Shown here: piece after piece, positions 15,501 to 24,500 of the stretch | Numbering within the stretch: the stretch's first letter is position 1 | Layout: every line of letters starts with the position of its first letter | Source: Erpobdella octoculata | Lineage: Eukaryota > Annelida > Clitellata > Hirudinida > Erpobdellidae | DNA length: 64,000 bases | Reading direction: 5' to 3' | NCBI GenBank assembly: GCA_963978895.1 | Contig: OZ022240.1 | Coordinates: 14,684,220-14,748,219 of the forward strand | Notes under the pieces: generated by a model | Database searches by the model: none | Seen by the model: only the letters and a program-made list of their open reading frames with translations | What the model was told of the DNA's origin: nothing | Position numbers and translations under genes: made by a program

Positions 15501-18500
15501 AAAGTAGCGGTAGCGAATAGCGCTGAGAACAGCTAAAAATGTAGCGGCGCTACCATCTACGATCTTGTCAGCCAATAGTAGCGCCGCTACCGCTATCTTA
15601 AAAATAGCGCTGCTACAGTAGCGGTAGCGTGGCGCTACCGCTCTTAACAACCCTGAATTTTAACTAATATAAAAAACCAAAAAGTAAAATGTACTTAGAT
15701 TTAACATTATTTTAATAGTTTCGTGCTAATGGAAATAGATACTGTCAGAATTTTTTTATGCAGATGTCATTCAAAAATGATTAGACTAAAATTAAAATTT
15801 ATATAAATTACTTTGAATCTATTTAAAAGTTTTAAATACATGAAATACAACAAATAGTGGCTAAAATTAATATTTATGGACAACAATTTAATAGATTTTT
15901 TTCTGTTGTTGTAAAGCTAAAGTAAACCAAAAATAGTTAGTCTATTTTTGTCTTGAGGAATGCTCAACCAACCATGTCGCATATCTTATAAGTAATGAGG
16001 CTTACACATTGAAACACATTATTCACTGGCATACTGAAAGTTGGAAGGCAACCAACATTTAAACCTCTTGGCTGCCAAGATGTCATTGGAATGCATGAGA
16101 GCGTTTACAGATGTATTTTTTATAATGTCATGAGCACAAATATCGTAAGTATAGATATGCCCTGCTGTGCAAATGTTCGCCTTCAAATCAGAATCAGCGA
16201 AGCTCATCCATCCAGCCTGGACCTAAAACTGTAGGCTGTAAAACCAATAAGGCACTTGCACATGCTGAAAAGATCTTTTTCATAAATGCAAACTTTAACA
16301 AAATAATTTGAAACTTACTACCATCTATAATTATTTTTTGTTGTATGTTTTCTAATTAGTTTAAATTGTTTTTAACCTGAAACTAAATGGTAACATGAAG
16401 GCTGTAAAAGCATGCACGACTATAGTTAGGCACTTGTACAGACTGTAAAGGTCTTTTTTGTAAATGCAAACTTTAAAAAATTGGTTTTTAAAATTATTTT
16501 TATTACAATTTTATTCAGTTATATATTTTTGATTAATTTAAATTTTTAGCGTTTTTTCTACTTCAAAATTTATAAATTGTTATTATATACTTTGCTGGAT
16601 GTTCGCATTACCATAAAAAATGGGTGCAGGGCATATCTATAGTTATAGGGTCATGAGCCATTGGCATCTGGTGCCAGTCATCTTTGTCTGTGTAAACACG
16701 CCTTTGCTCTGTGTATCGATATTCAATTTTGACAGATATCCTTAACAGATCAAGCGGTTGTCTTGTTGTGATTAGTCATAACGTAAAAGTCACAGATTTA
16801 TTATCGCTTTTCTCACCTCAACTTTTTTTATTACTATTGTATTGATGCTCCTTGTCACAGTCTTCCCTGCTGGAATGCCGTGAACTCCAGGAAGAAAAGA
16901 CAACTCAGAACGACAGCAAAAAAACTTTATTAAAGCACAGTTAATAACAAAAATCAAATACAAAACACGCAGGACTCCGCCTAATATTAAATAGCTGGAC
17001 TCTACTGGCGGGCTTCAAAACGCTATATATAGCCTCAGGAACGCGTAAACAAACAACAAAAAAACAACGTCTGCCAATGTCTAGGTTCCTGTCTAGACAG
17101 GTCGACGGGTGCAAGGTACACTTGTCAGGAGGTCCGGTAGAGCGACCCCTGACATAACTCCCCCCAAAACGAAGATGTTGAACAGTGTTTCAATATCTTA
17201 AATGTTATCTTTCACAGTACAGGATGAAGAATGGGTGTTCGTTCGTCCATGTATCGCGCCTACCAAAGCTTCCAGGTCGGGGACATCGAAGAGGACGACG
17301 AGGAAGATGAGGAGTGGGTGGAATCGGAAAAGTAGAACTTTGTAGATAATCTGGATGAAGAATGGGCGTTCGTTCGTCGATGTATCGTGTCTACCAGGGC
17401 TTCAAGGTCGACTTTAAACTGGAGATGTCCTTCCTGAAAGTAACTTTTACTCTCACCAGTAAAACCACCCATACAACCAGCTCGACCCATCCAAGTTTAA
17501 TCCCATACCGGTCTGAATTGTATTAACGAAGGAATCATCATCACGTCATATTGAAGAAGTTCAACTACCTCAACAATATCATTAATTATAGAATATCACA
17601 ACGATCTGCAACTAAGACAACAAAAGAGAAATCCTATGCACCTAGAAATACAACTAGTACAATGTGCCTCTGGGCTTATGCTAGAAAACAACATTTCAAA
17701 ATTTATAACAGTAAATAATAAACATAATAATAAACATAATTACGAAAAGTAAAAAAATTTCGTCTAGCTCTCCATGTTGAGAGACTACTCCCCTATCCGG
17801 GAGAGAAAATCGGCGGCTCCGTGAGATAAGAGAGAGAGACCACCAACTGGTCACCATGAAAAGCAGCAACCAGGAATTATATTTCTTACGGGTGTTATAA
17901 TGACGCTCATAGGTATCTTGTTGGTAGTCTTCATGTAGAGTTTATCTGGCTCTCTCTGAAGCTGCCAGATCTTCCTGAAGTTGGAGAAGTTCAGCTTCAA
18001 GCTGCTTGTATCTTTTGTCACTCTCTTTACTGGCATTTGACATCTCTTGTTTGGTTACATTAATAAATTCGATCTCGTGCATGAATTCTTTGATCTGGAC
18101 CTGGTAACGTTTGAACTGCTTCACAGCTTCATCTTTGACTTTCAGAGTATCAGCAAGTTGTTCCTCCATAGCTTTGAAGTTACCTTCAACCTTCTCCCGG
18201 GCATTCATTGCAAGCTGCTTCTGTCTCCTTTCTTCTTCAAGTTTAGCTTTTTGAACATTGAACATTTGAACATTTATTGAGCACGAAACAAAACAACAGT
18301 GAAGTTATAAATAAGGAAAAAAAAAATCAAGTGCTCAAAAGGTTCATCCAAAGGGAATTACTTCCCGCTAACTGGACGACCTATAAACGAAAATTCAGAT
18401 ACGAACCGAGACGGAGAAATAAAAGTTAACATAAGTGTATAGGAGTAAACATAAGTATATATAAGTTAACATATCTGTATCAAAGTTAACATAAGTATAT

Positions 18501-21500: not shown

Positions 21501-24500
21501 ATCTTCAGACCTCTCAAAACCAAAACAAATTTCTTCTTTAACAACAGAATCCATTGGATGAAATCAAAAGTTTTCAACCTCCTCCAGACTTAGAACTCGG
21601 GTGGGCCTGTCAGACTCAGTCCGCCTGACAAAGACCGCACCATTCCAGGTCCAGATGGAAGCAATTCTCTTTTCTTTAAGAAGTTTTCTACCCTTTGAAA
21701 AGATGTCGGCATTTTTTTTAGTTAGGTGTTCGTTTATATAAACTTTTTGCGCAGTGTCTTGTTTTCGTAGTAATCTCCTTAATTCATAGATCCTATCTCT
21801 GACAAGCCTGGAGGCGAATGTAACAACAATTGGCCGAGGCGCGTTCTTTGGACCCGGTACGCGAAACCCAGCAGTGATGTCACGCTCTGAAATTTCGAGG
21901 TCCAACTTTTTCTGACAACATTCTATCACAGTCTCTTATCTTTTTAAGAAAACCCTTTTTGCCTTTTTCGTCCATTTCCTCTCTTGACTGCGTCTCTCTC
22001 ATCAACTGATCTTTCCGGGTTTGCATATTCACTTCCAATCTTAACTTGGCATCTTCGGTACCTTGAACTTCCTTTTCGAGCTCTTCGATCATCTGCTTCT
22101 GGGCTTCCACCTGAGTTTCAAGAGCTTTCTTGTCTTTTTCTAATTCGTGAACATTCTTTTCGACGTCATCTTTAGAAGAAACCAGGTCATCAAATTCTCT
22201 CTGCAGTTGACTTCTCGCTCTGTTTGATTCGGTCAAATCTTCGTTCAGCCCATCAACTTGTCGAGTCAGGTTGAGAATTTTTGTTTTTGTATCCGACGCC
22301 AAAGTTGGGGTAGGCAGGCTATGTAAGGCAATAGTCTGTATTAATTCTACTACCCTAGGGGTAATGATTGCTTCTTCGTGTAAGTGGGGAACAACTGCAA
22401 ACCATTCTAAAAATTCAGGAGCTATATTGGTAGTATTAGGATCTACTGCACCTAAATTAACAGGTGCTTGCACAACATCCACCAGCTGTGGGTGGCCACT
22501 TAACCCACATAACTTAATTTTTCTCGGCAAACCCAATTTTAAGGATCTAACCAAATCTGCCCTTATACAACAGATTTCCGCTCCACTATCTATTAAGGCA
22601 ACAACAGGTGGGAGATTACTTATTTTTATTTTCATAAATGACCTATCATAAAATTTCATAGGATTATGAAGTACATCATTTCCCGGACACGATGGATGAG
22701 AAGGTTCGTTACTAATACTACAACAATTGGTATAAGCCGATGGTGCGACCTGCGAAACCTCTCGTTCCGGACATTTTTCCTTACATGGCCTGGCGAATTA
22801 CAGCCAAAACAACGGCCAGATCTTAAATCGACCTGACGGTTAATTAAACTATCTGATTTGACAACTTGGCGAAAAGACGATGACTGGTATGGAACATGAG
22901 CAGCCGCATAATTATCGGCCACTTGAGATAGTTCTTCATGAGACAACCATCTATTTTGTTCTTGGGTCAAAACGAAATTTGGACAGTCAACCGGTAACAA
23001 CTCCTTGAGCCGGTCGGTGCACAGCAAACTTATTAGCTGATCATAATTCCGATCAATCCCCCTACTTTTAACATAGTATGAAAATGCATTATGTAGTTCG
23101 GAAGCCAAACTAGAGAACGTTTGGTCCGGTTTTTTAGTTAGAGATTGAAAATATTGTTTTAAATAGACAGGACTGACTCTGTGTTCGGCTAAAAGAGCCG
23201 TTTTAACATTATCATAATTTTCTAATTGAGTAGGAGAAAGATGGGTTATTAAACTACGTGCCTTACAAGTCAAACATGATTGTAAAATCCTGGCTTTGAT
23301 GTCATTATTGACATTATTAATAATAAATTGTTTTTCTAATAATTCAAAAAAACCAGGAATTTCCTGAATATTTGAAGGAAATTCACCTACCAACGGTCTA
23401 ATAATTGATATACACCGACTAGCCGACTTTCAACCGAAGTTTCAAAATTTTCTCGAGCTATCATTCGTTCACGTTCCTCTATTCTCCATCGTCTTGTTTC
23501 TTCCCTGTCTCTTTCAGCTCGTTCCTCCCTCCTTCTCACCTCTTCTAATTCTAGCCATCTTAGCTTTCTATTTTCTCGGTCTTCTTCTAACATCATCACT
23601 TTTAGTTGTAAATCTCTCTCTCGCAATGCTCTATCTTTCGATTCATTCTCCAATTGTCTCTCTATTTCCAACTCTTTCCTCCTTTCTTCACCATCCCACA
23701 TACCTCTACGCTTTTGTTTTTCATGACGTTCTCCTCGTCGATCTCCCCACGTCGGATCTACGCCAAACCCACTAGTGTTTTCCCTCCTAACGTTCCCCGC
23801 ATCCTCCCAATTTTCTGGAGACACATTCCCTCCAGGTAATTGCGCTGAGTCTTCACAACCCTAAACACCGGACGACTTACTATCCATCTTCAACCAGATA
23901 AGTATCAATATAAAAGACTTACTTATCTAAACTCAGACCGGCGGGAAAACACGAAAAGAAACTCAAACCTTGAGCACGGATGGGTCGGCCGGTTCTAGCC
24001 ACGGAAAACCTCGTAACTGGTTAGCTGATCCAAGGAGAACTTCACCGGCAAGAGAGATCTTCTTCCCGAACTTGCTTGTCGAACTTTGCTGGAGAGCACT
24101 TCTTTCTTCCTGCTACTTGATCCCACCGCTGCCACCAAAATGTCACAGTCTTCCCTGCTGGAATGCCGTGAACTCCAGGAAGAAAAGACAACTCAGAACG
24201 ACAGCAAAAAAACTTTATTAAAGCACAGTTAATAACAAAAATCAAATACAAAACACGCAGGACTCTGCCTAATACTAAATAGCTGGACTCTACTGGCGGG
24301 CTTCAAAACGCTATATATATAGCCTCAGGAACGCGTAAACAAACAACAAAAAAACAACGTCTGCCAATGTCTAGGTTCCTGTCTAGACAGGTCGACGGGT
24401 GCAAGGTACACTTGTCAGGAGGTCCGGTAGAGCGACCCCTGACACTCCTGCAACTTGTCTTGTACCAGTAATTCTGTTTGTGGCAATTTTGCCACGACCT

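Follow-up and report, generated by a model that had tools for sequence, protein, structure and literature searches.

Layout of the locus and identity of the captured sequence

The window analysed here is a stretch of 64,000 nucleotides from the annelid Erpobdella octoculata (contig OZ022240.1, positions 14,684,220 to 14,748,219), and it carries on its minus strand a long terminal repeat (LTR) retrotransposon, the parts of which are listed in Table 1. As originally predicted, the two LTRs are nearly identical and both flanks read CTCCT. In this copy gag is disrupted by two frame changes. The protease frame continues directly into sequence coding for a myosin II rod (open reading frame (ORF) 22797-21880, minus strand), which is split by a nested long interspersed nuclear element (LINE) and followed immediately by a stop codon. 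In 18 of the 19 other copies with which it was compared, the corresponding piece is free of stops, the exception being L019. The direct repeat of 58 nt (88%) in the 3′ region (17222-17279 and 17353-17410) is present in other copies too.

Table 1. Parts of the LTR element, in window positions (PBS, primer-binding site; RT, reverse transcriptase)
Feature	Positions	Strand	Remarks
Whole LTR element	16853..24444	minus	Erpobdella octoculata window, contig OZ022240.1
5′ LTR	24141..24444	minus	
3′ LTR	16853..17154	minus	against the 5′ LTR: 2 substitutions, one 2-nt indel, 300 identical columns
Target-site duplication CTCCT, two sites	24445..24449 and 16848..16852	none	
PBS-like sequence	24119..24137	minus	
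gag N-terminal coiled-coil region, ORF	23387..23860	minus	frame change into next ORF
gag capsid/nucleocapsid region, ORF	22656..23429	minus	frame change inside zinc knuckle (by eye)
Nucleocapsid end and aspartyl protease (DSGA)	22298..22797	minus	DNA matched in other copies
Myosin II rod piece 1, in protease frame	21930..22290	minus	borders within a few nt
LINE nested in myosin	18254..21929	minus	ORF1 C-terminus-like, endonuclease, RT; ORF2 in two frames; borders within a few nt
Myosin II rod piece 2	17942..18253	minus	
Element 3′ region, 787 nt	17155..17941	minus	polypurine tract 17155-17170 at its end

In Pfam searches, ORF 22797-21880 matched the aspartyl protease family PF13650 (E 0.0021, under the Pfam cut-off) and then PF01576, Myosin_tail_1 (E 1.9e-34, profile positions 632-760), and ORF 18304-17942 (minus strand) matched PF01576 again (E 1.9e-26, profile positions 755-856). 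These profile ranges indicate that the two pieces are consecutive, and the proposal that myosin sits in the protease ORF and continues past the LINE therefore holds. The top PDB matches of both pieces were Myosin-11, -10 and -9, with E values down to 3.4e-24 for piece 1 and 5.8e-18 for piece 2, whereas the best muscle myosins were far weaker (E 0.0032 and 0.013, respectively). Judged from these matches, the captured segment is the rod of a non-muscle/smooth-type myosin II.

The expectation that pol enzymes would be missing was borne out: Pfam RT and endonuclease domains inside the element are confined to the LINE ORFs, and no pol domain was found in the 10 ORFs scanned with Pfam out of 14 on the minus strand (at least 25 amino acids, touching 17155-17941). 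TG..CA LTRs, a primer site, a polypurine tract and a target duplication of 5 bp, within the 4-6 bp expected of such elements, are all present, and an aspartyl protease in the family (match below cut-off) together with an H2C2 integrase in a relative, L069, is likewise in keeping with a Ty3/gypsy-like LTR retrotransposon.

In a set of 5.8 billion proteins the protease-myosin ORF retrieved nine myosin fragments, none listed with a protease domain, and piece 2 retrieved three; the gag query gave no match in that set. Scans of IMG/VR with gag and protease yielded no relative, and the PBS string was not found there. The PBS resembles the 3′ end of a tRNA-Leu. A scan of prokaryote genomes with its string returned L001, which has bacterial-looking ORFs, and L002, an independent contig with a gypsy-type integrase in which a 21-nt string spanning most of the PBS lies near the start of a gag-like ORF. 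L002 (NJBM01000046.1) is filed under a Planctomycetes metagenome-assembled genome and is probably eukaryotic contamination.

Dispersed copies, spliced origin and architectures

The genome searched was that of the window itself (386 Mb, 94 contigs). Each search scored only its best candidates (40 of 137, 40 of 140, 43 of 441, 150 of 249, 40 of 71, 40 of 49 and 40 of 61), so that each copy number is a minimum and relatives with RT could have escaped detection. Piece 1 gave 41 matches at 93-100% identity (best 40 of 137 candidates) and piece 2 gave 41 at 87-100% (best 40 of 140), the last row in each case being the second piece of a copy already listed. PF01576 gave 49 matches (best 43 of 441) and a protein query over the capture end gave 136 (best 150 of 249). 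By hand count the latter represent ~128 separate places, once three intron-bearing myosin genes (on contigs C1, C5 and C6) and five double hits are subtracted. The DNA of 45 copies, the window's included, was read; the remainder of the ~128 places are candidate element copies, some with weak matches. One PF01576 match reaching further 3′ (C1:31890843) was considered as a candidate gene and ruled out, being a copy with an internal duplication.

The full-length set comprised 20 loci carrying 21 copies, spread over many contigs. At least one LTR-type end was found at all 20 loci, and the transition from myosin to the 3′ region is identical, to within a few nt, at every one of them, which argues for a single capture. 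None of the 20 has a LINE between the myosin pieces. Target duplications were read in 11 two-LTR copies besides that in the window, copies with broken or partial LTRs being set aside. A perfect 5-bp duplication flanks 10 of the 11, all different from one another, although one of the ten lies in a GTAT repeat and is weak; the two LTRs of a copy are 92.6-99.65% identical among the copies read for flanks. With the window, 11 of 12 copies have their own target duplications and so the recombinant itself was mobilised, as the original prediction had supposed on the strength of one copy, and it transposed repeatedly. An assembly join is excluded by the independent copies on many contigs, which share the same segment and 3′ junction and have different target duplications. 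One locus, L012 (G000:C7:10878000-10887400), contains two myosin-bearing copies in the same orientation, ~0.6 kb apart from LTR to LTR; their LTRs match those of the window at 80% and 93% identity.

The best intron-bearing match to the capture-end query was a class II myosin gene on contig C1 (E 6.9e-21), with motor exons at 7319477-7328432 and an N-terminal domain at 7328912, both on the minus strand. Its tail was read in a piece of 4 kb (L068) on the same strand, ~4 kb downstream of the motor exons. The captured segment corresponds to seven exons of this gene, and its six introns (314, 106, 104, 630, 359 and 123 nt), all GT-AG, are cleanly absent from the element copies. Because these introns are absent, the source was a spliced messenger RNA (mRNA) of a myosin II. 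One of the intron positions is supported by database homologues, six of nine of which have an apparent intron read-through between GKN/S and VHELEK/VHDLEK. The proposed transduction of a host myosin is thus upheld by an intron-bearing gene that contains the segment. The myosin pieces were also considered as exons of a gene resident in the window and this was rejected: the rest of the window yielded a single weak tblastn hit (E 0.33), and the intron-bearing gene lies on contig C1.

Three architectures, A, B and C, are found among the copies. In type A, to which the window copy belongs, protease gives way to myosin within a stretch rich in A and C; there, 8 of 10 nt are shared by the end of the type B protease and the myosin (by eye). 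Type B has ~75 extra codons past the protease and enters the myosin further upstream. In type C the N-terminal coiled coil of Gag is joined to a still longer myosin segment, without capsid and protease, and the fusion is in frame in copies whose frame is open there; in some type C copies part of the myosin is also duplicated in tandem. Compared with other copies, in which the myosin segment is longer, the window copy is a shortened form. Type A LTRs are ~91-98% identical to those of the window, and the pieces of one interrupted LTR 91-100%. Since B and C cannot be derived from one another by simple deletion, it is likely that elements recombined or switched templates among themselves to yield them. 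The type C segment, the longest compared, starts inside one exon and ends inside another, and at its 5′ junction AGAA is common to Gag and myosin (by eye).

Change in the myosin among the copies

Constraint was assessed in 39 copies, those among the 41 fetched in which the myosin is present to both ends, using a tree built without the window copy and expected counts from shuffles that keep the mutation spectrum. Internal branches carried 101 replacement changes (95.4 expected), 37 silent changes (36.7 expected) and 0 nonsense changes (5.9 expected), and none of 300 shuffles had so few internal-branch nonsense changes. The corresponding counts on terminal branches were 274, 99 and 14, against 263.2, 100.1 and 23.6 expected. 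Relative to the neutral expectation, the ratio of replacement to silent changes was 1.05 on internal and 1.05 on terminal branches. Counted by site, shared nonsense changes numbered 2 versus 5.2 expected (82 of 1000 shuffles) and all nonsense changes 12 versus 21.7 (12 of 1000). In no site-wise set, the largest of which excluded L026, were replacements significantly below the chance level (lowest 156 of 1000 shuffles). Purifying selection had been suggested by the ratio of nonsynonymous to synonymous differences per site (pN/pS) between the window copy and L012-L016 and L018 (0.27-0.47; 0.72 for L011), and this was not upheld by the spectrum-preserving shuffles. Of the 39 copies, 21 have a reading frame that stays open across the segment. 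Away from the segment ends there are three shared indels: an in-frame deletion common to 17 copies and, in one near-identical pair only, two frameshifts. Of the private indels 7 are in frame and 8 are not. Amino-acid change since the copies diverged looks neutral and nonsense changes are below expectation; after the common ancestor of the copies, the myosin has been mainly a passenger.

Divergence from the C1 gene shows a different pattern. This comparison used 31 of the 39 copies, 8 frame-shifted or truncated rows being excluded, with the C1 myosin, out of the three intron-bearing class II genes, as the gene compared. Mean synonymous (dS) and nonsynonymous (dN) divergence from the C1 gene were 0.40 and 0.072, compared with 0.091 and 0.059 among the copies. 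Fixed differences comprised 35 silent and 12 replacement changes, against 14.4 and 30.4 expected (0 of 1000 shuffles), and of 11 fixed amino-acid differences an outgroup placed 7 on the element side and 2 on the gene side, leaving 2 unresolved. Silent divergence from C1 far exceeds replacement divergence, which would not be expected of a capture from the C1 lineage itself followed by drift; either the donor had already diverged or the myosin in the element was constrained before the ancestor of the copies. Tentatively, the captured myosin may derive from a diverged functional gene (a paralogue since lost, or a myosin II gene from a different animal species) and have been brought into this genome by the element; in the latter case an animal gene fragment would have crossed species inside an LTR element and then amplified. 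The alternative is long purifying selection on the myosin inside the element before the burst.

Relatives, competing explanations and known systems

The type B linker, used as a query, found 40 hits (best 40 of 49 candidates), eight of which, among them those at C5:26518977 and C8:20456739, end within ~6 nt of the type B switch into myosin. At L069 (G000:C4:21108960-21109930) the next ORF contains an integrase zinc-binding domain (H2C2, E 1.6e-16) and, judged by eye, continues into the integrase core, which is truncated by a short-period repeat resembling, again by eye, a 15-nt minisatellite of the window. Integrase DNA of the L069 type adjoins the linker in 8 of 8 relatives at 86-100% identity (100% being L069's own locus; one match is in two pieces). 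Because the linker hits stop where type B myosin starts and integrase DNA adjoins them there, these eight relatives have integrase where type B has myosin. The gap from capsid to linker is 200-564 nt in six of the seven measurable relatives and 9,370 nt in the other. A gap of 200-564 nt leaves no room for RT before the integrase, and the RT of those six is either downstream, in the order of the Gmr1 type, or deleted. Near the 3′ end of the capture, the 3′ region (17155-17941, minus strand) has a stop-flanked stretch of 12 residues that resembles the end of a gypsy RNase H; this motif was picked out post hoc, and it may be a pol remnant or chance.

Overall, it is very probable that the window element is a copy of a non-autonomous Ty3/gypsy-like LTR retrotransposon family in which a segment of a spliced non-muscle/smooth-type myosin II mRNA replaced pol. 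Most likely, RT moved from the element RNA to a myosin mRNA packaged with it and later returned, each switch point lying within an exon. The recombinant would still have had its LTRs, primer site and polypurine tract and all or part of gag, and would have been copied in trans to ~128 places, with further template switches or deletions giving rise to the three architectures; the window copy, of type A, would later have been broken by its frame changes and the LINE. Several observations weigh against this account. The 3′ switch point cannot be placed, as the pre-capture sequence of the element would be needed; the C1 gene is just 86.7-89.7% identical to the copies, at the dS given above, and is possibly not the donor itself; type C LTRs are only ~75-93% identical to those of the window, mostly near 80%, which indicates that LTRs vary between subfamilies; and one two-LTR copy, in L012, lacks matching flanks. 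The best-candidate genome searches also revealed no RT-bearing family member or relative, so that of the originally suggested supply of enzymes by a related intact element, the existence of relatives with integrase stands and a supply of RT in trans is presumed.

An intronless segment with a LINE inside it would also be expected if a processed pseudogene of myosin had been inserted by LINE-type machinery into an LTR element already in place, with copying of the composite afterwards. A pseudogene would, however, carry the 3′ end of the mRNA, whereas the segment begins and ends within coding exons with no 3′ untranslated region or poly(A) seen; moreover, pol is missing at the same place, and none of the 20 other full-length loci contains the LINE. 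The mid-exon ends favour template switching, and the pseudogene route is very unlikely. Even less credible is segmental duplication of one dead insertion as the cause of the copy number: the near-identical pair L026 and L044 would be in keeping with it, but 10 of the 11 fetched copies examined have perfect and all-different 5-bp duplications, and copies are on many contigs.

A further proposal concerns what the myosin does, namely that selection maintains the rod as a functional component of the element because its coiled coil, as a fusion with Gag or Gag-protease, aids particle assembly. The in-frame fusion to the Gag coiled coil in type C, the copies with open frames, the lack of internal-branch nonsense changes and the 12:35 ratio of replacement to silent fixed differences from the C1 gene would all be in keeping with such a role. 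Set against this, replacement is neutral on both classes of branch and not significantly reduced in any site-wise set, the nonsense signal weakens when counted by site, two of the three shared internal indels shift the frame (both only in the one near-identical pair), and the 12:35 ratio includes the constraint on the C1 gene itself. Selection for particle assembly is, on balance, unlikely, and the capture of a pol-replacing mRNA segment that was then carried mainly as a passenger is the preferred explanation.

Elsewhere in the window, an uninterrupted ORF of 835 amino acids (1040-3547, minus strand) has protease-like, integrase zinc-finger and integrase-core matches and a DUF7083 N-terminus, with no RT or RNase H match, and reads as another element with gag, protease and integrase only. 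The ~15-nt minisatellite (GGACTATTCATCAA type) occurs at 6980-7147 and 8244-8395, in opposite orientation and ~1.1 kb apart. Arrays of CTAACCC, interspersed and telomere-repeat-like, are located within the contig at window positions 58562-58811.

Acutely transforming retroviruses carry host mRNA in place of pol or env and need a helper. The present element resembles them in having host mRNA in the place of pol, and differs in that it has no growth gene and that no env or infection stage was seen, no search aimed at env having been made. Bs1 of maize has kept gag and protease and lacks RT. In PMC13317346 and PMC5408686 it is described as an LTR retroelement with segments of three host genes that form a chimeric gene. 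The comparison with Bs1 drawn at the outset is apt: here too, host coding sequence that is not element-derived lies inside both LTRs and makes a chimeric gene, it came from spliced RNA, and the recombinant was mobilised. Unlike Bs1, the element is in an animal host, has one myosin segment, occupies ~128 places in three architectures, and combines the coiled coils of Gag and myosin in one fusion.

LTR-mediated retrocopies in metazoans (Tan et al., 2016, as summarised in PMC5408686) arise by template switching at short similarity and often represent partial mRNA. The probable switch from element RNA to mRNA here and the copying of part of the mRNA are alike in the two cases; what that review reports are retrocopies with signatures of LTR-mediated retroposition, whereas here there is an amplified family with distinct target duplications. 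Crocodilian endogenous retroviruses (ERVs) captured KIT-ligand or nectin3, with nectin3 replacing env and purifying selection on the captured ORFs, according to PMC4299795. These are again animal LTR elements that took up host mRNA and exist in several copies, and on that account env was replaced or nothing was lost, while here pol was replaced and replacement among the copies looks neutral. In Gmr1-clade Ty3/gypsy elements, integrase is usually upstream of RT, as stated in PMC8220671. The six measurable relatives without room for RT before integrase, and the RNase H-like end motif near the start of the 3′ region, are reminiscent of that clade; unlike in the established Gmr1 order, RT was not seen in the relatives here.

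Among the matches listed for literature on myosin capture or captured host genes in LTR elements, there was no LTR element carrying myosin. In the sources consulted, host-gene capture by LTR elements is mostly known from plants and vertebrate retroviruses, with few animal retrocopies. The present family provides a nearly end-to-end animal case, with an intron-bearing relative gene, spliced capture, a hybrid element at ~128 places, three architectures and integrase-bearing relatives, and indicates that part of a cellular gene can give rise to a mobile family. It can now be tested how often capture leads to such a family, whether a host coiled coil can take over the multimerising role of Gag, and whether elements of this kind ferry gene fragments between species. 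The kind of element is already known from maize Bs1 and the crocodilian ERVs, and the family described here is an unusually amplified animal variant of it.

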